Source: an uncultured Spirochaetota bacterium (GTDB lineage Bacteria > Spirochaetota > UBA4802 > UBA5550). Taken from it: a DNA stretch of 64,000 nt. Within the stretch, counting starts at the first letter, position 1. Each line of letters begins with the position of its first letter. The notes beneath the pieces were generated by a model, which saw only the letters and a list, made by a program, of their open reading frames with translations, was not told where the DNA came from and searched no databases. Of this stretch, positions 3,659-64,000 are shown one piece after another. Location of the stretch: positions 62,001 to 126,000 of the forward strand of contig CALMRZ010000064.1 of the NCBI GenBank assembly GCA_937872225.1. The letters run 5' to 3'. Position numbers and translations under genes: made by a program.

Positions 3659-5218
3659 TCACTCATCGGTGAAGGCAGTGCTGAGCTCTCGCGACAGGGC
3701 CGTGAGGTTCGCGGCGCTGCGGCGGAGCTCCTCGGTGCTCTGGGTGTTCAGCTGCACGTTCTTGTTCGTTTCGTCAATGGACTTGACCACGTCCTCGATG
3801 GCGATCTTCTGCTCCATCATGGAGTGCTCGATCTGTTCCGAGCGCGTCTTGACGACGCCGGTCTTCTCGTTCATCTCGTTCTTGATCGCCTTCTGCGTGT
3901 TAACTTCGATATTGGCCTCGGAGGTCTTTTTCTGTATCGCGGCGATGTTGTCCAGGAGCACCCTGATGAAACCGATGATCTCGGTTATTATCTGGTTCCC
4001 CTTTTCCACGTCTTCCTTGTTTCTTTCAAGGAGGGTGGATATCTGCTTCAGGTCCCGGGCCGAGGTATCGGACATCTTCCCGATCTCCTCCGCAACGACG
4101 GCGAACCCCCGGCCGTGATCGCCGGCACGGGCGGCCTCGATGGCCGCGTTGAGGGCAAGGAGGTTCACCTTTTCGAAGAAATCCTCCATGATGCTTACGA
4201 CCGAAATGATATTGTTTGAGTTGGAAAGGATCTTGTTGTTGATGGCGTCAAGCTCTTCGGAGGCCCTTCCACCCTGCTCGGCCTGGGCCATAAAGGACGC
4301 GAAGAGTCCGGCTATCTCCTTGCCGTACCGTTCCATCACGTCGATCGACCCCGACATGACCTCGATGCTTGCGATGAGGTCCTTCACCGATCCGTTCTGC
4401 TCCCTGGTGGCGTTGGTGACATTGTTGATGCTGGCCGATATCTCCTCCATGGTGGCCGTCAGCTCCTCCACCGACGCGGCCTGGCTCTGGGAGGCGATGG
4501 CATAGCGGTCGATGACATTGGACATTACGTGGATCGAATCGGTGAGTTCGGCGGATGTCTTGCGGATCGTCTTGTTGAGGTCGCTGATTTCGAGGTATTG
4601 CTTCCGGTTCTTTTCGGTCTCTTCCTTGCTGCGCAGGATGGCCCGGTTGAGGAACCGCGACGCTGAAAATGATACGGCGTAAACCATGGAGAGAGAGACG
4701 ATGCCGTCCAGCATGGCGGTTTTCGCGATATCATTGACCTGTCCGCTGGTGATGCCGGGGGCCTGCAGAAAGTAGTAGGCAGCATGGGTGACAATGAAGG
4801 CAATGAAAACCGGAAGGGAAAACTTCGGGGTCGAAAAGAGCGTCGCGAAGATAAGGCTCATATACATGAACAGGCCCATGGAGACCCCGGCGATATGGGG
4901 CGGCCTTAAGCTGAAACCCAATATTATTACCGCGCATGATGAGAAGACCAGGAGATTGATGGCATAGGACGCTCTGCCGTATTTGATCAGGAGGATGCTC
5001 ATAACGGCAATCCCCATCGACGGCAGGATCATCGATGCATACCGTAAAAAACTGTCCCGCACCGCCACCGCCACGGCGCCGAAGAGTATTATCAGAAGAA
5101 AAAAGAATATGAGACAGAAATTTAGAACAAACTGCGCCTTCTTGAAATCAAGGTAATCCTGGTTATAATAAGGGGAGAGAAAAAAATCGCGGAGCCGGTT
5201 GCTCTTTTTATTATTCAT
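3659..5218 (-). CDS. Methyl-accepting chemotaxis protein with polytopic membrane N-terminus
   Basis: 519 residues from the ATG at 5218, preceded by an AGAGAGGA ribosome-binding site; an upstream in-frame start at 5239 has none. Residues 30-190 hold about six hydrophobic helices in place of the usual periplasmic ligand-binding domain, so the signal is probably sensed in or at the membrane. A long coiled coil follows, with the signalling hairpin tip near residue 362 ([31 protein letters not shown] in pieces), which binds CheA and CheW. There is no HAMP domain. No che genes are nearby. Its architecture resembles that of the chemoreceptor at 23085-24689. Confidence 0.9.
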   Translation of the reverse strand: MNNKKSNRLRDFFLSPYYNQDYLDFKKAQFVLNFCLIFFFLLIILFGAVAVAVRDSFLRYASMILPSMGIAVMSILLIKYGRASYAINLLVFSSCAVIILGFSLRPPHIAGVSMGLFMYMSLIFATLFSTPKFSLPVFIAFIVTHAAYYFLQAPGITSGQVNDIAKTAMLDGIVSLSMVYAVSFSASRFLNRAILRSKEETEKNRKQYLEISDLNKTIRKTSAELTDSIHVMSNVIDRYAIASQSQAASVEELTATMEEISASINNVTNATREQNGSVKDLIASIEVMSGSIDVMERYGKEIAGLFASFMAQAEQGGRASEELDAINNKILSNSNNIISVVSIMEDFFEKVNLLALNAAIEAARAGDHGRGFAVVAEEIGKMSDTSARDLKQISTLLERNKEDVEKGNQIITEIIGFIRVLLDNIAAIQKKTSEANIEVNTQKAIKNEMNEKTGVVKTRSEQIEHSMMEQKIAIEDVVKSIDETNKNVQLNTQSTEELRRSAANLTALSRELSTAFTDE

Positions 5219-5433
5219 GAAATCCTCTCTCTGTCGCAATAATTAATCACTGTATTTATTTTTCTTTTTTTGTTGAGAAGCTTACTGAATCATTCTTAAT
5301 CGAAGATAAAAAAATTTCAATATACTTTTTTTCACATGCCGGGAAAAAAGAAATATCCTGCAGGCATGTAAGGGAATACCACCACAGGGTCATCAGTAAA
5401 AAGCATAGATAAAGAGCGGATACCATCACTGAA

Positions 5434-5947
5434 TCAGTTTTCGATATTAAGCCGCGCTGAACACCATGCCAAAGCGCTTTTTTTCACTCCCCCATTGAGC
5501 AATAGCACCGCCCCCATGAGAATGAAATGATACACGCTGTTGTAGTCGAATTCCCATACCAGGGAATAGCGGACGGAGCGCAGTGCCTGTACTATCGAGG
5601 CAATGATGATGGCCGCTATTCCCGCGGCCATGGGAGCCAGCGCTCCGTCCCTGCGGGAGGCCGCCAGGGAGAGGCACAGGACAAGGGAAAAGGCCATGGC
5701 CAGGCCCGAGTAGGCAATGAATACGATAAAAATACCCACCGATAAACCGGGAAAGGACCAGCGTTAAAACAAAAAATGCGGCGCCCAGCGAAAGCATGGC
5801 CCCTATCGCCCTCTTCAATAGGCGGGTCCCTTTCCATTCATAGAGCATGGCGACCACAAACAGGGACACCATCATCTCCAGGCAGCAATTCATATTATCA
5901 GCTGTAAACCTCTTGCCGAGCAAAAAAGTGGCCGAGTTATAAAACAT
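5434..5947 (-). pseudogene. Small polytopic membrane protein interrupted by a frameshift
   Basis: Two overlapping frames make one protein. The ATG at 5947 opens a frame whose first 70 residues are membrane helices (ending LTLVLSRFIGG). The continuation GIFIVFIAYSGLAMAFS and two further helices are in the next frame, ending at 5434 (SARLNIEN). The break falls around 5728-5745 at GGTGGGTATTTTT, where one inserted or lost base restores a single frame of about 170 residues with five or six membrane segments. The out-of-frame tail of the first frame becomes Arg/Pro-rich and non-hydrophobic, as expected after a frameshift. Family not recognised. It may be a true pseudogene or a one-base sequence error. 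Confidence 0.6.
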
Positions 5948-6035
5948 GATATATTTGATTTTTTATTATATAGATTTATAAATATTAATAAAAGAATTAT
6001 ACAAAAGTTAAATTTTATATTTTTTTATTTATGTA

Positions 6036-6066
6036 TTGACAAAAATATATCACTGAACAGTGTTCA
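6036..6066 (+). promoter_or_regulatory. Candidate promoter with palindromic operator upstream of the response regulator gene
   Basis: TTGACA at 6036-6041 matches a -35 box. A palindrome, TGAACA-G-TGTTCA, occupies 6054-6066, where the -10 region would lie. The area is very AT-rich compared with the genes. Palindromes of this TGAAC/GTTCA form are common TetR-family operators, so a repressor site over the promoter is plausible, but no regulator gene is adjacent. Confidence 0.35.
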
Positions 6067-6109
6067 ACAATTAAAAGCGTCCAATCGTTCGGTTTTTTTG
6101 GAACTGCTC

Positions 6110-7054
6110 ATGAAGAAAAAGAAACGAGACTGCAAAGTCCTCATTGTTGAAGACGAGGCCCTCATAGCCTTCGACATCAGCATGACCCTCCAGCAATTCG
6201 GCTATTCCGTGGTAAACATTGTCGCAACCGCCGATGAATCGATCAAGGCCGTGGAGGAATACAGACCCGATGTGGTCATCATGGACATCCTCCTCAAGGG
6301 CAACACAGACGGCATCGAGGCCGCGGAAAAGATAAAGGACGAGTATAAAATCCCCATCATATTTCTCACGACCTGCACGGACGACAATACGGTGAAACGG
6401 GCCACCACCCAGATACCCTACGGCTATCTCCTGAAGCCGTTCCGCAGCATGGAGCTCAGCATTCTCATCGAGCTGGCGCGCCAGCGGCACAGCTTCGAAC
6501 AGATCCTGATACAGAACAACCTGAAGCTCGCCGACGAGCTCGATAAAAGCAGGAAACTGGAACGGAAGCTCCAGGAGATATCCCTGGTGGACGAGCTCAC
6601 GGGCCTATACAACAGGCGCGGCTTCAGCCAGCTTTCCCGCCAGCAGGCCGAGATCGCGAAAAGGACCGGCCGCAGCATGCTCCTCGGCTTCTTCGACCTC
6701 GACCACATGAAGCACATCAACGACTCCTACGGCCACCACGAAGGGGACAACGCCCTGGTGTCCGCCGCCGGCATACTGAGAAAGATATTCCGCGCCTCGG
6801 ACATCATCGCCCGGTGGGGCGGCGACGAGTTCGCGGTCCTGATGATCAACGCCGACTGCGACGAGATACTGTCCATCGACCAGCGGATTGAAAGCGTCAT
6901 CAACAACTACAACGACCAGGCCGACCACCGCTACATCATTTCCATGAGCTGGGGGATCGTGAAGTTCGATCCCGCCTATCCGGCAGAGATCGACGACCTG
7001 GTATCCCGCGCCGATGAAATGATGTACCGCCACAAATCGTATAAAAGATTATAA
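6110..7054 (+). CDS. Response regulator with diguanylate cyclase (REC-GGDEF) output
   Basis: 314 residues from the ATG at 6110, with GGA eight bases upstream; a TTG four codons earlier is possible. Residues 8-120 are a receiver with acidic pocket E14/D15, phospho-acceptor D59 (VVIMD) and the conserved Lys in LLKPF. Residues about 150-314 are a GGDEF domain with DELTGLYNRRG at its start and intact GGDEF at about 237-241. The RASD tetrad five residues before it is the RxxD inhibitory site. The protein should therefore make cyclic di-GMP when phosphorylated and be limited by its product. The receiver's MDILLKG and LKPFRSMEL wording resembles receivers paired with cytosolic PAS-type kinases. No partner kinase is adjacent. 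Confidence 0.92.
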   Translation: MKKKKRDCKVLIVEDEALIAFDISMTLQQFGYSVVNIVATADESIKAVEEYRPDVVIMDILLKGNTDGIEAAEKIKDEYKIPIIFLTTCTDDNTVKRATTQIPYGYLLKPFRSMELSILIELARQRHSFEQILIQNNLKLADELDKSRKLERKLQEISLVDELTGLYNRRGFSQLSRQQAEIAKRTGRSMLLGFFDLDHMKHINDSYGHHEGDNALVSAAGILRKIFRASDIIARWGGDEFAVLMINADCDEILSIDQRIESVINNYNDQADHRYIISMSWGIVKFDPAYPAEIDDLVSRADEMMYRHKSYKRL

Positions 7055-7203
7055 TTCCATGCCGCAGACCGGTCTTTTCGACGAATCCCGGTATTCCGTG
7101 AAACGAGGAAATCTTGTTAATAATTCAACATCTTTCTCCAGGGCCGGTGGGGCCAGGTATGAACTTTTCAGAAAGGCGTTTTCACTAATAGTGATTGTGA
7201 TAA

Positions 7204-7833
7204 TCAGATGCGGAACCGCTCTTTCGGCATGATGGCCATGCCGATAAAGGCGGCGAGGAACGTCTTCACGACCGCTCCGGGGATGAACGGGATGGCCCCC
7301 ATGTAAAGGATGGCTTGGAGCGAGGGGGGTTCTCCCTTCACCGCGGTGATCCAGACATACAGGTAGAGGGTGCCGAGACCCAGGATGACGACGAGGTTGG
7401 CCATCCCCATTATGATCACGAGGGGAATAATCCTTCTCATGGATTCATGCCGCTCGAGGACCAGGCCCACGAGATAGGCCGTTACGACAAATCCCGCGAG
7501 GTACCCGAAGGTGGGCCCGGCGATGACGGCGGGCCCGGCGACCGCGCCGGCAAACCAGGGGACCCCGGCGAGGCCGATGGCAATGTAGAACACCTGGCTC
7601 AGGGCACCCCGCCTTCCGAGCACCATGGCGGCGATGAGCACCGCCAAGGTCTGGCCGGTGACGGGAACCGGCGTCCAGGGAAGATACACGGCCACCTGCG
7701 CCATGATACCGGTGAAGCAGCTCATGGCGAGGGAAAGGAGCACCACGGTGACCGTCCCGCAGCCGTTCATCCGGCTGAATAATGCAAGCCGCGCCTCGCG
7801 ATAGCGGTCAATGGCCGCCGCAAATCCTTCCAT
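7204..7833 (-). CDS. bioY: BioY biotin transporter substrate-binding component
   Basis: 209 residues, six membrane helices, with the BioY signature YLPWTPVPVTGQTLAVLIA in the first third and the GPTFGYLAGF loop typical of the biotin-binding S component of ECF transporters. No EcfA/EcfT genes are nearby, so it either shares a genome-wide energizing module or works alone, as some BioY proteins do. The start at 7833 lies 15 bases after the htpX stop, so the two genes probably share a transcript. A BirA operator cannot be assigned from sequence alone. Confidence 0.92.
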   Translation of the reverse strand: MEGFAAAIDRYREARLALFSRMNGCGTVTVVLLSLAMSCFTGIMAQVAVYLPWTPVPVTGQTLAVLIAAMVLGRRGALSQVFYIAIGLAGVPWFAGAVAGPAVIAGPTFGYLAGFVVTAYLVGLVLERHESMRRIIPLVIIMGMANLVVILGLGTLYLYVWITAVKGEPPSLQAILYMGAIPFIPGAVVKTFLAAFIGMAIMPKERFRI

Positions 7834-50824: not shown

Positions 50825-53038
50825 ATGAAGACCGAATACACCTTCTGCAGAATATGCGAATGCCTGTGCGGCCTCAAGGTGACCCTCGACGGAAACCGCG
50901 TGGTGAAGATCGAACCCGACAGGGAACACGTTGCCACCGAAGGCCATGCCTGCGTGAAAGGGCTCAAGCAGCACCGGATCTACGAGTCCCCGGACCGGCT
51001 GCGACATCCCCTGAAGCGCGAGGGCTCCGAATTCAGGAGGATATCGTGGGAGCAGGCCCTGGGGGAGATCGGCGGAAAGGTCAGGGCCCTGCGGGCGGCC
51101 CACGGGCCCGACTCGATCGGCATGTACGTCGGCACCGCCACCGGCTTCGACATGCTCCATCCCGCCTTCGCCCAGGGGTTCATGACCGGCATCGGCACGA
51201 AGCAGATGTACTCGCCGCACACGCAGGACTGCGCCAACAAGTTCGCCGTGGCCCACCACCTCTACGGGTTCCCCTTCACGCAGCCCTTTCCCGACATCGC
51301 CAACACGAAGTTCCTGGTCATTGTCGGGGGAAACCCGGCAATCTCGAAGTTCAGCTTCCTGCAGCTCCCTCATCCGATGAAAAAGCTGAAGGCAGTAGTC
51401 GAACGGGGCGGCCGCGTCATATTCATAGATCCCCGCCGCACCGAATCGGCCAGGATGGCGGGCGAACACGTGTTCATCAGGCCCGATACGGACGTTTTCT
51501 TTTATCTCTCGTTCCTAAGGGAGATATTCGCGAGGGACGCCATAGACCGGGAAAAGACCGCCGCCTTCATGGAGGGCCTTGACCGTCTGCGCGGCATCGC
51601 CGAGCCGTGGACCCCCGATCGCACCGCGGAAGTCACCGGCATACCGTCAGGGACCCTGCGCGACATCGTGAGCGGCTACCTGGCCGCCGACGGGTCCGCC
51701 CTCTATTCGTCCACCGGGGTCAACATGGGCCGCAACGGAGCCCTGGCCTTCTGGCTTCAGGAAGTCATTAATGCTATAACCGGGAACCTCGACCGCTTCG
51801 GCGGGACCCTGGTCGGACGCGGCATCGTTCCCTTCGAGCAGATAGGCAGAAAGCGCGGCTTGCTTTTGCGGAAGGACCGCTCGCGCATCGGCGGATTGGC
51901 GTCGGTGAGCGACTGTTTTCCCGGCGGGGTTCTGGCCGACGAGATACTGACCCCGGGCCCGGGACAGCTCCGGGCCCTCTTCTGCACCGGCGGCAACCCG
52001 CTCAACACCATGGCCAATTCGGCGCGCATCAGCGGAGCCTTTAAGAAACTCGACCTGCTGGTGTCGGTGGACATCTTCCTGAACGAGACCGCGTCCCTCG
52101 CCCACTATGTGCTGCCGGTCACCCCGTTCTTCGAAATGGCGGGCATTCCCTTTATCTTCCCCCTCTTCTGCGGGCTGCAGCACCGGCCTTACCTGCAGGC
52201 GACGCGGGCCGTCCTCAAGCCCGACGGCGAGCAGCGCCACCCCATGGAAGTTTACACCGCCCTGGCCCGCGCCTGCGGGGCGCCGCTTTTCGGCTCCAGG
52301 GCAGTCCAGGCGGTGATGGACCTTAACATGAAGGCGCTCCGCTCGAAGCTCTTCAGCGGCATCGCCCTCACCCCGGAGCGCATGCTGGGCCTTATCCTGC
52401 GCTCCGGCGGCCAGCCTGGGTTCAGAAAGCTCCTTCGCCATCCCCACGGCATGCTCCGTCCGCCCCATCAAGAGGGGTCGTTCCTCGGCAAGAGGGTCGT
52501 CACGGAGAACGGCAAAGTCAACCTGGCGCCGGGGCATTTCATTGAGAGAACCGCCTCGCTGGACGGGGTCTATGCCGATGAGCTTAAAAACCGGGGCATG
52601 CTGAAGCTTATCACAAAACGGGCGGTCCGCACCCACAACTCCTGGATGCACAACCTCGAGGAATTCGTCGCCGGGGACAACAACACCAACTATCTCTACA
52701 TGCACCCGGCAGACGCAGAAAACGCGGGCCTGGCGGAGGGTGAATATGCCGACGTGTCATCCGCAACGGGGACGGTGCGGGTCCCGGTAAGGTTCCTTGA
52801 GGAACTGATGCCGGGCACCGTGGCCCTGCCCCACGGCTGGGGCCACCAGCCTGCGCGGGGATTATCGGTCGCGGCCGCGACCCACGGAGTCAACGTGAAC
52901 ATTCTCGCCGCAGACGGGCCCCGCAACCTTGATCCCCTCTCGGGCATGGCCCACCTTACCGGCATCCCGGTGACAGTGAAGCCGGCGGAAGGGCCCCATG
53001 ATCCCACGAGCTGGTCCGGGATATCAGAAACAAAATGA
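50825..53038 (+). CDS. Molybdopterin oxidoreductase (DMSO reductase family)
   Basis: 737 residues from the ATG at 50825, with GAGAAAGGA upstream. It begins YTFCRICECLCGL, with a [4Fe-4S] Cys set (C-x2-C-x3-C, then Cys in HACVKG), followed by the Mo-bisMGD binding region (IGMYVGTATG..., LVIVGGNPAISKFS, STGVNMGRNG, FCTGGNPLN) and the C-terminal dinucleotide-binding domain (ALPHGWGHQP). No signal peptide or Tat motif, so it is cytoplasmic. No partner subunit genes adjoin it. The subfamily, and hence substrate, cannot be told; the gene is not tied to the adjacent ssb. Confidence 0.92.
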   Translation: MKTEYTFCRICECLCGLKVTLDGNRVVKIEPDREHVATEGHACVKGLKQHRIYESPDRLRHPLKREGSEFRRISWEQALGEIGGKVRALRAAHGPDSIGMYVGTATGFDMLHPAFAQGFMTGIGTKQMYSPHTQDCANKFAVAHHLYGFPFTQPFPDIANTKFLVIVGGNPAISKFSFLQLPHPMKKLKAVVERGGRVIFIDPRRTESARMAGEHVFIRPDTDVFFYLSFLREIFARDAIDREKTAAFMEGLDRLRGIAEPWTPDRTAEVTGIPSGTLRDIVSGYLAADGSALYSSTGVNMGRNGALAFWLQEVINAITGNLDRFGGTLVGRGIVPFEQIGRKRGLLLRKDRSRIGGLASVSDCFPGGVLADEILTPGPGQLRALFCTGGNPLNTMANSARISGAFKKLDLLVSVDIFLNETASLAHYVLPVTPFFEMAGIPFIFPLFCGLQHRPYLQATRAVLKPDGEQRHPMEVYTALARACGAPLFGSRAVQAVMDLNMKALRSKLFSGIALTPERMLGLILRSGGQPGFRKLLRHPHGMLRPPHQEGSFLGKRVVTENGKVNLAPGHFIERTASLDGVYADELKNRGMLKLITKRAVRTHNSWMHNLEEFVAGDNNTNYLYMHPADAENAGLAEGEYADVSSATGTVRVPVRFLEELMPGTVALPHGWGHQPARGLSVAAATHGVNVNILAADGPRNLDPLSGMAHLTGIPVTVKPAEGPHDPTSWSGISETK

Positions 53039-61714: not shown

Positions 61715-62317
61715 TTATTTTCTGTCAGCCCCCGAAAGGCCGGCCGCCTCCCGGGCCTTCAACCCCCTCCTTCTCCTGATCCGCTTGACTATGAAGATGA
61801 TAGAGGCGATCAGGAAGATGCCCGCCATGATCAGGAGCTCGTACTTCTTGATGTCGTCGAGGACGGCCTCCATGACGCGGCCGAAAAAGTATCCCAGGAC
61901 CCCCAGGGTCGCCGCCCAGATGGCGGCGCTCAGGACATTGAGCAGGATAAACTTCTTCAGCGACACGTTGCTCAAACCGATGGCGAAGGGCGCCACCGTC
62001 CGCAGGCCGTACAGGAACCTGAACACCAGGATGAACCACGTGTCATGGCGGTCCATCATCGTCCTGAACCGGTTGACGCGGGGCTGCCAGCCCGGGAACC
62101 GCTTCAGCAGGGCCCGGCCGTTGTAGCGGCCGATGAAAAAATAGAGCTGGTCCCCGAAGAGGCTGCCGAAGAAGGCGGTCACAATGACCCAGGGTAGCTC
62201 AAGGTAGCCCTCGTAGGCGGCAAAGCCCCCGACGACCAGGATTGTCTCTCCCTCCAGAAAAGTCCCAATGAAAACGGCCAGGTAGCCGAATTCCCGCACC
62301 AATGATTCTATTGTCAT
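61715..62317 (-). CDS. DedA-family membrane protein
   Basis: 200 residues. It begins ESLVREFGYLAVFIGTFLEGETILVVGGF, the DedA signature with the membrane-embedded Glu, then LFGDQLYFFIGRYNGR and FRFLYGLRTVAPFAIG; four to five membrane helices. DedA proteins flip lipids or act as proton-linked transporters. The ATG (62317-62315) overlaps the stop of selD (ATGA), so translation is coupled. A DedA protein has been reported to affect selenite uptake in Cupriavidus metallidurans, which makes the selenium context notable. Confidence 0.93.
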   Translation of the reverse strand: MTIESLVREFGYLAVFIGTFLEGETILVVGGFAAYEGYLELPWVIVTAFFGSLFGDQLYFFIGRYNGRALLKRFPGWQPRVNRFRTMMDRHDTWFILVFRFLYGLRTVAPFAIGLSNVSLKKFILLNVLSAAIWAATLGVLGYFFGRVMEAVLDDIKKYELLIMAGIFLIASIIFIVKRIRRRRGLKAREAAGLSGADRK

Positions 62318-63381
62318 GTAATGATTATCCTCTGAATTGAACTGTTCCGCGCCTGCGCGACGACCGCCGCATCTGCGATGCCCGCGCCATGGAGCTCGGA
62401 CACCAAGGCTTCTGACGCCTTTTCTTCAACGGCGATGAGGAGCCCCCCTGACGTCTGGGGGTCAAAGAGGACATCAACGAGGTCTTGAGCCACGCCGGTG
62501 CCGGTTTCACAGAGGCTTCCAATAAAATCGCGGTTCCGATACATGCCGGCCGGAATCAGGCCGCCGGACGCCGCGTCCCGTGCCCCTGGCAGGACCGGCA
62601 CGCGCTCAGAATCAAGGATTATTTCCATCGCGTTCTTCCCCAGCATCTCCCGCAGGTGGCCGATCAGGCCGAAACCGGTCACGTCGGTGCAGGCGTGGAC
62701 CCCGTGGCCCCGCATGATGAGGGCAGCGGCACGATTCAGGGTGGTCATTGACCTGACGAAAGGTCCCATGGCCCCCTCTCCCGCCGATCCCGCCTTGAGG
62801 GCCGTGGCAATCAGGCCCGTTCCCAGAGGTTTGGTGAGGACAATGACATCGCCGTCCCGCAGGGTGTCGTTGCGCACCGCGCGGTCCGGACGAACAATGC
62901 CGGTAACGGCGAGGCCGTATTTGAATTCAGGGTCGTCCACGCTGTGGCCGCCCAGGAGCTGGGTCTCGGCCTCCGACAGCGCGGCAAGGCCGCCCTGGAG
63001 CACCTCCCTCAGGACGTCAAGGGAGAACTTTTTCGTCGGAAAGCAAACGATATTCAGCGCCGTTACGGGCCTGCCGCCCATGGCGTACACATCGGAAAGG
63101 CTGTTGCAGGCCGCGATCTTTCCGAACGTGAAGGGATCGTCGACAATGGGCGTAATGTAATCGACGGTCTGGACCAGCGCCTCCGATTCCGACAGGCGGT
63201 ACACGCCGGCGTCGTCGCTGGTGTCCGGTCCCACGATCACATTGCCGTCATATGTCAGCGGCAACCCCTTCATTACTTCCTGCAGGTCCACCGGACCTAT
63301 CTTGGCAGCTCAACCGGAACTCGTCACCGATTCGGTGAGGCGCAGGACGTTCAGCTTGCTGATGTCGCACGTGTCGCTCAT
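62314..63381 (-). CDS. selD: Selenide, water dikinase SelD containing an in-frame UGA (selenocysteine)
   Basis: 355 residues when the TGA at 63312-63310 is read as selenocysteine. The ATG at 63381 has AAGGAG seven bases upstream. The protein opens MSDTCDISKLNVLRLTESVT, then SSG-Sec24-AAKIGP, which matches the family's active-site SxGxxxK loop (Cys17 and Lys20 in Escherichia coli). After the UGA, VDLQEVMKGLPLTYDGN, DDAGVYRL, DYITPIVDDPFTFGKIAACNSLSDVYAMGG and the glycine-rich LLGGHSVDD, HACTDVTGFGL continue the usual SelD sequence, length and order. A start at 63291 after the TGA would remove the catalytic loop. SelD makes selenophosphate from selenide and ATP for selenocysteine or selenium cofactors. 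Confidence 0.92.
63285..63312 (-). promoter_or_regulatory. SECIS-like hairpin after the selD UGA
   Basis: Reading the mRNA (minus strand): UGA (63312-63310), twelve bases, then GGUCC-GGU-GGACC (63297-63285) with the apical loop starting with G. Spacing of 11-13 bases and a G in the loop fit the bacterial SECIS consensus bound by SelB. Outer pairing of CUGC with GCAG around it adds to the stem. Confidence 0.75.
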
Positions 63382-63455
63382 CGTTGCTCCTTGTGTTAAT
63401 CACCCGCCCTCCCCCGTCAAGGGAGGGGGTGTTTCAAACAGATTGTTATGACGAA

Positions 63456-63680
63456 TTATTTCCAGGCCTCGATCCGGGCAAATTCCACGCCGCCCTTTTC
63501 GAGGACTTCCCTGACCCGGGGGATGTCGTCGCTTTTTATCCGCACGCAGTATCCGCAATCCGAGCTCAAATAGCGGGGTATGGGGACCATCTTCCTCTCG
63601 ATCCCCGCCTTCTTGAGGAGCCGCGCCGTCCATATCGACGATGTCGCCGAATAGAACAGGATTACGGAAAAGGCGTTCAC
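63456..63680 (-). CDS. DUF3343 putative selenium/sulfur carrier protein
   Basis: 74 residues. It starts with GTG (63680-63678), overlapping the TGA of the upstream aminotransferase (GTGA), so it is translationally coupled. The pattern VILFYSATSSIWTARLLKKAG and PRYLSSDCGYCVRI matches DUF3343, a small family seen beside selD and class V aminotransferases and proposed to carry Se or S. The two Cys in CGYC are candidate carriers. A hairpin with CCCTCCC/GGGAGGG lies in the 74-base gap before selD. Confidence 0.85.
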   Translation of the reverse strand: MNAFSVILFYSATSSIWTARLLKKAGIERKMVPIPRYLSSDCGYCVRIKSDDIPRVREVLEKGGVEFARIEAWK

Positions 63681-64000
63681 CCGGCCTCCTTCATCGCGCT
63701 GATCTCCTCAAGGGCGCTGATCGCATAATCGATTTCATCTTTCGTATTGAAAACGCCGAAGCTGAAACGCACCGCGCCCTCCGGAAAGGTCCCCATCGTC
63801 CGGTGGGCCATGGGCGCGCAGTGAAGGCCCGCGCGGCACATGATGTTATACCGGTCCGACAGGTGATAGGCCACGTCCGACGGCTCCATGCCTTCGATAT
63901 TGAAGGATATGACGCCGGTCTCGACCAGGGACGCCGATGCCGGGGGATCAAAGCCCCGCACGCGCTCTTCCGCGCGGGCAAGGAAATAGGCCGCGAGATC
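63677..64000 (-). CDS. Class V aminotransferase (cysteine desulfurase-like), C-terminal fragment
   Basis: The gene enters from the right edge; the last 107 codons are visible. VETGVISFNIEGMEPSDVAYHLSDRY and MCRAGLHCAPMAHRTMG with RFSFGVFNTKDEIDYAISAL are the C-terminal signature of the NifS-like group (EF2568 type) often found next to selD and DUF3343. RAGLHCAP contains the Cys loop that supplies the catalytic thiol. It may deliver selenium or sulfur from cysteine or selenocysteine. Coupled to the DUF3343 gene by GTGA overlap. Confidence 0.9.
   Translation of the reverse strand, partial: DLAAYFLARAEERVRGFDPPASASLVETGVISFNIEGMEPSDVAYHLSDRYNIMCRAGLHCAPMAHRTMGTFPEGAVRFSFGVFNTKDEIDYAISALEEISAMKEAG

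Follow-up and report, generated by a model that had tools for sequence, protein, structure and literature searches.

The selD Reading Frame Continues through an In-Frame TGA

The minus strand near the end of the window (the whole stretch of 64,000 nucleotides analyzed here, from an uncultured Spirochaetota bacterium) carries a gene for selenide, water dikinase (SelD, selenophosphate synthetase) with a TGA codon inside its reading frame, which raised the question of whether this codon is read as selenocysteine (Sec). The features of the gene are as follows.

62314..63381, minus strand: selD, encoding a selenide, water dikinase of 355 aa that includes Sec24 (TIGR00476, read-through translation and matches to SelDs in the PDB)
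63379..63381, minus strand: start codon ATG of selD
62314..62316, minus strand: stop codon TGA of selD
63310..63312, minus strand: in-frame TGA of codon 24, a predicted Sec codon, where Cys-type SelDs have their catalytic Cys
63386..63391, minus strand: Shine-Dalgarno stretch of the AAGGAG type just 5' of the selD ATG (direct sequence reading)

The frame of 355 codons (63381–62314) was found to hold only one internal TGA, at 63312–63310, exactly where a preliminary description of this DNA had placed it. The read-through protein scored 371.1 bits against the TIGR00476 selD model (curated cut-off 125) and thus belongs to the SelD family, and a further selD model search gave a match of 364.9 bits running across the codon, with “1 TGA” inside. 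When the read-through protein was aligned with the SelDs 3u0o and 2yye of the PDB, codon 24 fell opposite the catalytic Cys of both solved proteins, in agreement with the preliminary assignment of the TGA to the active-site Cys/Sec position; Lys27, three residues after Sec24 (UAAK), was aligned with the CGCK motif of 3u0o and the CAAK motif of 2yye. An ordinary ORF caller reported only a GTG-started 325-aa ORF from 63291, the very truncation that had been anticipated for automated calls, and this ORF drops the N-terminal loop with Cys/Sec and the conserved Lys.

A Candidate Bacterial SECIS Element Follows the TGA

The preliminary description had also claimed a GGUCC-GGU-GGACC hairpin 12 bases past the TGA, and the following element was located by folding, comparison and a model of bacterial SECIS (bSECIS) elements.

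63284..63298, minus strand: candidate upper stem-loop of a bacterial SECIS, AGGUCC-GGU-GGACCU, with a 6-bp stem and the loop GGU

The arms GGUCC (63297–63293) and GGACC (63289–63285) enclose the loop GGU (63292–63290), and a sixth pair is formed by A-U (63298/63284). The spacing from the UGA to the 5-bp stem (63297–63285) was 12 nt, as claimed, and that to the loop was 17 nt. The hairpin resembles the bSECIS consensus (PMC13188914) in its 3-nt loop starting with GG, its 6-bp stem and its 17-nt distance from UGA to loop, and this model does not demand that an element closely resemble that of E. coli fdhF. Its energy as a minimal hairpin is borderline, however, since the model sets a limit of ≤ −7.5 kcal/mol for the minimum free energy and the calculated values were −7.4 kcal/mol for the 15-mer, −8.4 kcal/mol for the 17-mer extended by one base on each side, and −12.2 kcal/mol for 40 nt; in a 71-nt stretch, folding gave a competing minimum-energy structure. 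Synonymous recoding of the same peptide under loose bSECIS rules produced a comparable element of at least 5 bp in 36% of cases and of at least 6 bp in 19%, and folding z-scores were modest (−1.1 for the selD hairpin). The idea that this hairpin is significant by itself was rejected after this control. Searching positions 62000–64000 with Rfam at a permissive threshold returned no SECIS and no other credible RNA family. Apart from SelD, a scan of the window for read-through candidates followed by a SECIS-like hairpin yielded only a single weak candidate, at 4116 (plus strand).

The Stem Is Conserved in TGA-Containing SelDs

To place the hairpin in a comparative context, 109 SelD homologues with an alignable codon 24 were used, 56 with TGA and 53 with TGC or TGT; all 53 homologues without TGA thus had a Cys codon exactly there. 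Relative to their own synonymous recodings, the mean z was −1.98 for TGA-SelDs and +0.15 for Cys-SelDs (Mann-Whitney P ~1e-13, relatedness ignored), and the stem was kept in one of two fixed registers in 54 of the 56 TGA-SelDs versus 3 of the 53 Cys-SelDs (relatedness uncorrected). When all pairing registers were scanned, the TGA-SelDs peaked at i+j = 36 (51%) and i+j = 42 (49%), registers found in 2% and 8% of the Cys-SelDs, respectively. The Cys-SelDs showed a separate peak at i+j = 43 (40%), probably reflecting shared codons of related Bacteroidota and Campylobacterota. Unlike the lone selD hairpin, this comparative stem pattern exceeds chance.

The hairpin of the window uses register 36, in which the base pairs are nearly invariant among relatives and thus show little covariation. 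Compensatory changes were seen in the register-42 group (one pair occurs as G-C, C-G and A-U, another as U-A and G-C), and most such changes fall in that register, not in the one used here. Two SECIS registers accompany the same UGA within one order (L029, L031, L045, L047, L049 and L052 versus L018 and others); the shift of the partner sum from 36 to 42 moves the loop a few bases downstream, and all six members of family f5 that were examined had 42.

The Genome Encodes the Sec Machinery and Further Probable Selenoproteins

The genome of the window (G000; 4.69 Mb, 97.7% complete, 95 contigs) was searched for the genes required for Sec decoding, with the following results.

Contig 72, 3963-4051: selC, tRNA-Sec, UCA anticodon (72.5 bits)
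Contig 72, 4151-5488: selA (477.5 bits)
Contig 72, 5530-7326: selB (308.6 bits; cut-off 242)

The preliminary description had reasoned that the organism must contain SelA, SelB and tRNA-Sec, and that a lack of selB or selC would speak against its proposal; all three genes were present side by side on this single contig in the order selC-selA-selB. A tRNA selenouridine synthase (YbbB/SelU) is also encoded in the genome (314 bits). Family searches, which sample the selenoproteome and give a minimum count of Sec genes, identified two further genes with an in-frame TGA, in each case at an established Sec site.

Contig 21, 1348-1346, minus strand (L134): TGA of the formate dehydrogenase alpha subunit (FdhA), in ARI-U-HS (ARIUHSATVAGL), at the catalytic site
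Contig 65, 60319, plus strand (L143): TGA of a peroxiredoxin (AhpC/TSA), in FTFV-U-ATE, at the peroxidatic Cys position

Judged from their sequences, FdhA is probably the second and the peroxiredoxin the third selenoprotein of the genome. The hairpin loops after the TGA were GGUCU in FdhA, GGUC in the peroxiredoxin and GGU in SelD. The same searches found no TGA-containing copies of the FlpD/MvhD and CMD/AhpD-like families. The window itself contains, at 50840-51820 (plus strand), a molybdopterin oxidoreductase related to formate dehydrogenase, with an 893-aa frame free of internal TGA and a TIGR01591 score of 147 bits, below the cut-off.

Distribution and Phylogeny of TGA-Containing SelD

Among 46 genomes of the order, including that of the window, 37 encoded a SelD with exactly one in-frame TGA, and the replacement by TGC or TGT named in the preliminary description as contrary evidence was not what the relatives showed, the TGA being retained in 36 other genomes. 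The tRNA-Sec was detected in 36 of the 37 (the exception, G039, is a bin of 69% completeness) and in three of the nine genomes without TGA-SelD, those three being 71–83% complete (Fisher P 6e-5, relatedness ignored). Family f3 comprised four genomes with a non-TGA SelD or none, in which tRNA-Sec was absent. An extra tRNA-Sec match of lower score (57–62 bits) accompanied the usual one of about 72 bits in G011, G024, G035 and G041, and the sole match in G006 was divergent (61 bits). In genomes of family f5 (e.g., contig 44 of G023), the tRNA-Sec gene lies about 180–220 bases downstream of the selD match, whereas in the genome of the window selC stands beside selA and selB on another contig.

The same TGA also occurs in many SelDs of Desulfobacterota, Myxococcota, Bacillota and Chloroflexota. 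In a SelD tree, 25 of the 27 examined TGA-SelDs of the order formed one supported group, which includes L053 (a Spirochaetota MAG of the same order, identical to L036), and the gene of the window sits inside its own genus. The TGA-SelDs of G033 and G006 (L028 and L038) fell with sequences of Syntrophales, Myxococcota and Chloroflexota, suggesting a probable acquisition by horizontal transfer; G006 also encodes another SelD, whose frame has no internal stop. A plasmid search returned only partial matches, mostly of 60–80% identity.

Genes Adjacent to selD

The genes flanking selD are as follows.

63456..63680, minus strand: DUF3343 protein of 74 aa resembling a small Se/S carrier, encoded upstream of selD (PF11823, 64 bits; cut-off 25)
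63677..64000, minus strand: 3' part of a cysteine desulfurase/selenocysteine lyase-like gene (whole gene 417 aa, L022:1677-2930)
61715..62317, minus strand: membrane protein of the DedA/VTT family, whose gene overlaps the selD stop (ATGA; PF09335, 64 bits)

The desulfurase-like protein scored 425 bits against TIGR01977, a general model for the cysteine desulfurase family (cut-off 377). Against the model of the selenocysteine lyase SclA it reached 340.4 bits, under the cut-off of 525, so that no name more specific than that of the general family is warranted. DUF3343 has been proposed as a Se-trafficking protein and is associated with Sec lyase and SelD (PMC5322559). By sequence, the lyase-like gene likely supplies selenide, and together with the carrier-like gene it might plausibly deliver selenium to SelD. 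The DedA/VTT gene stands beside selD in four of the same-genus genomes examined (L037, L039, L040 and L041) and not in L050; this co-location does not imply a role in selenium metabolism.

Discussion

The data described above indicate that the in-frame UGA of selD almost certainly encodes selenocysteine at the active site, and we are highly confident that the gene specifies a Sec-containing selenophosphate synthetase whose UGA 24 would be decoded through SelB and the stem-loop. In the proposed mechanism, the stem-loop just past codon 24 would recruit SelB carrying Sec-tRNA-Sec, which would decode UGA 24, while the terminal UGA of selD would have no decoding role and simply terminate. Sec24 and Lys27 would then act in the mobile N-terminal loop of SelD in the conversion of selenide and ATP to selenophosphate, which would be used by SelA for Sec, including that of SelD itself, and probably also by the tRNA 2-selenouridine synthase.

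Three other accounts of the codon were weighed, each of which we regard as very improbable. The TGA could stem from a mistake in sequencing or assembly, or from a nonsense mutation, in a Cys-type gene or pseudogene, and single-base errors are possible in so fragmented an assembly; the recurrence of TGA at this codon in 36 further genomes of the order and in many members of four other phyla, the conservation of the frame on both sides of it and the presence of the Sec machinery leave this account hardly tenable. That a truncated SelD of 325 aa starts at GTG 63291, with the upstream frame unused, is what the ORF caller reports, yet such an enzyme would be without the catalytic Cys/Sec and the conserved loop Lys, the peptide RLTESVxSSG encoded 5' of this GTG is conserved across the order, and the AAGGAG stretch lies ahead of the upstream ATG.

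The UGA might instead be read otherwise, either through a genome-wide code assigning it to Trp or Gly or by insertion of Cys on tRNA-Sec. Homologues do have Cys at this position, and sulfur misloading of tRNA-Sec is compatible with the sequence, but UGA is the ordinary stop of selD itself, selA and selD are both present, and tRNA-Sec is the only TGA-decoding tRNA among those shown, which do not amount to a genome-wide tRNA list; the chance of such decoding is accordingly put as very slight. A variant of Sec decoding, in which UGA 24 serves as a selenium-dependent switch, with low selenium leading to a stop at codon 23 and altered expression of the downstream gene, is conceivable because SelD needs its own product for full-length synthesis, and the start of the downstream gene overlaps the selD stop; we consider such a switch unlikely.

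The reading of UGA 24 as Sec corrects a selD gene call truncated by ordinary ORF finding and documents, in this Spirochaetota order, a complete Sec-decoding trait together with three or more probable selenoproteins. The Sec-SelD is real but ordinary, being a member of a widespread bacterial selenoprotein family, and opens no new mechanistic question; among prokaryotic selenoproteins, Sec-containing SelD is described as ranking second in how widely it occurs (PMC13188914). Compared with the Cys-containing SelD 3u0o, it shares the fold family and the active-site lysine, with an alignment through residues 11-327, and differs in having a Sec codon, whereas 3u0o has Cys and needs no SECIS. Sec-containing SelD has been listed for the spirochaete Treponema denticola since 2006, and for Syntrophus as well (PMC1794560). 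Those proteins share with the present one the UGA at the catalytic Cys, a downstream SECIS and SelA, SelB and SelC in the genome; the difference is one of lineage only, in an apparently undescribed Spirochaetota order whose SelD clade is separate from that of Syntrophales and Myxococcota in the SelD tree.
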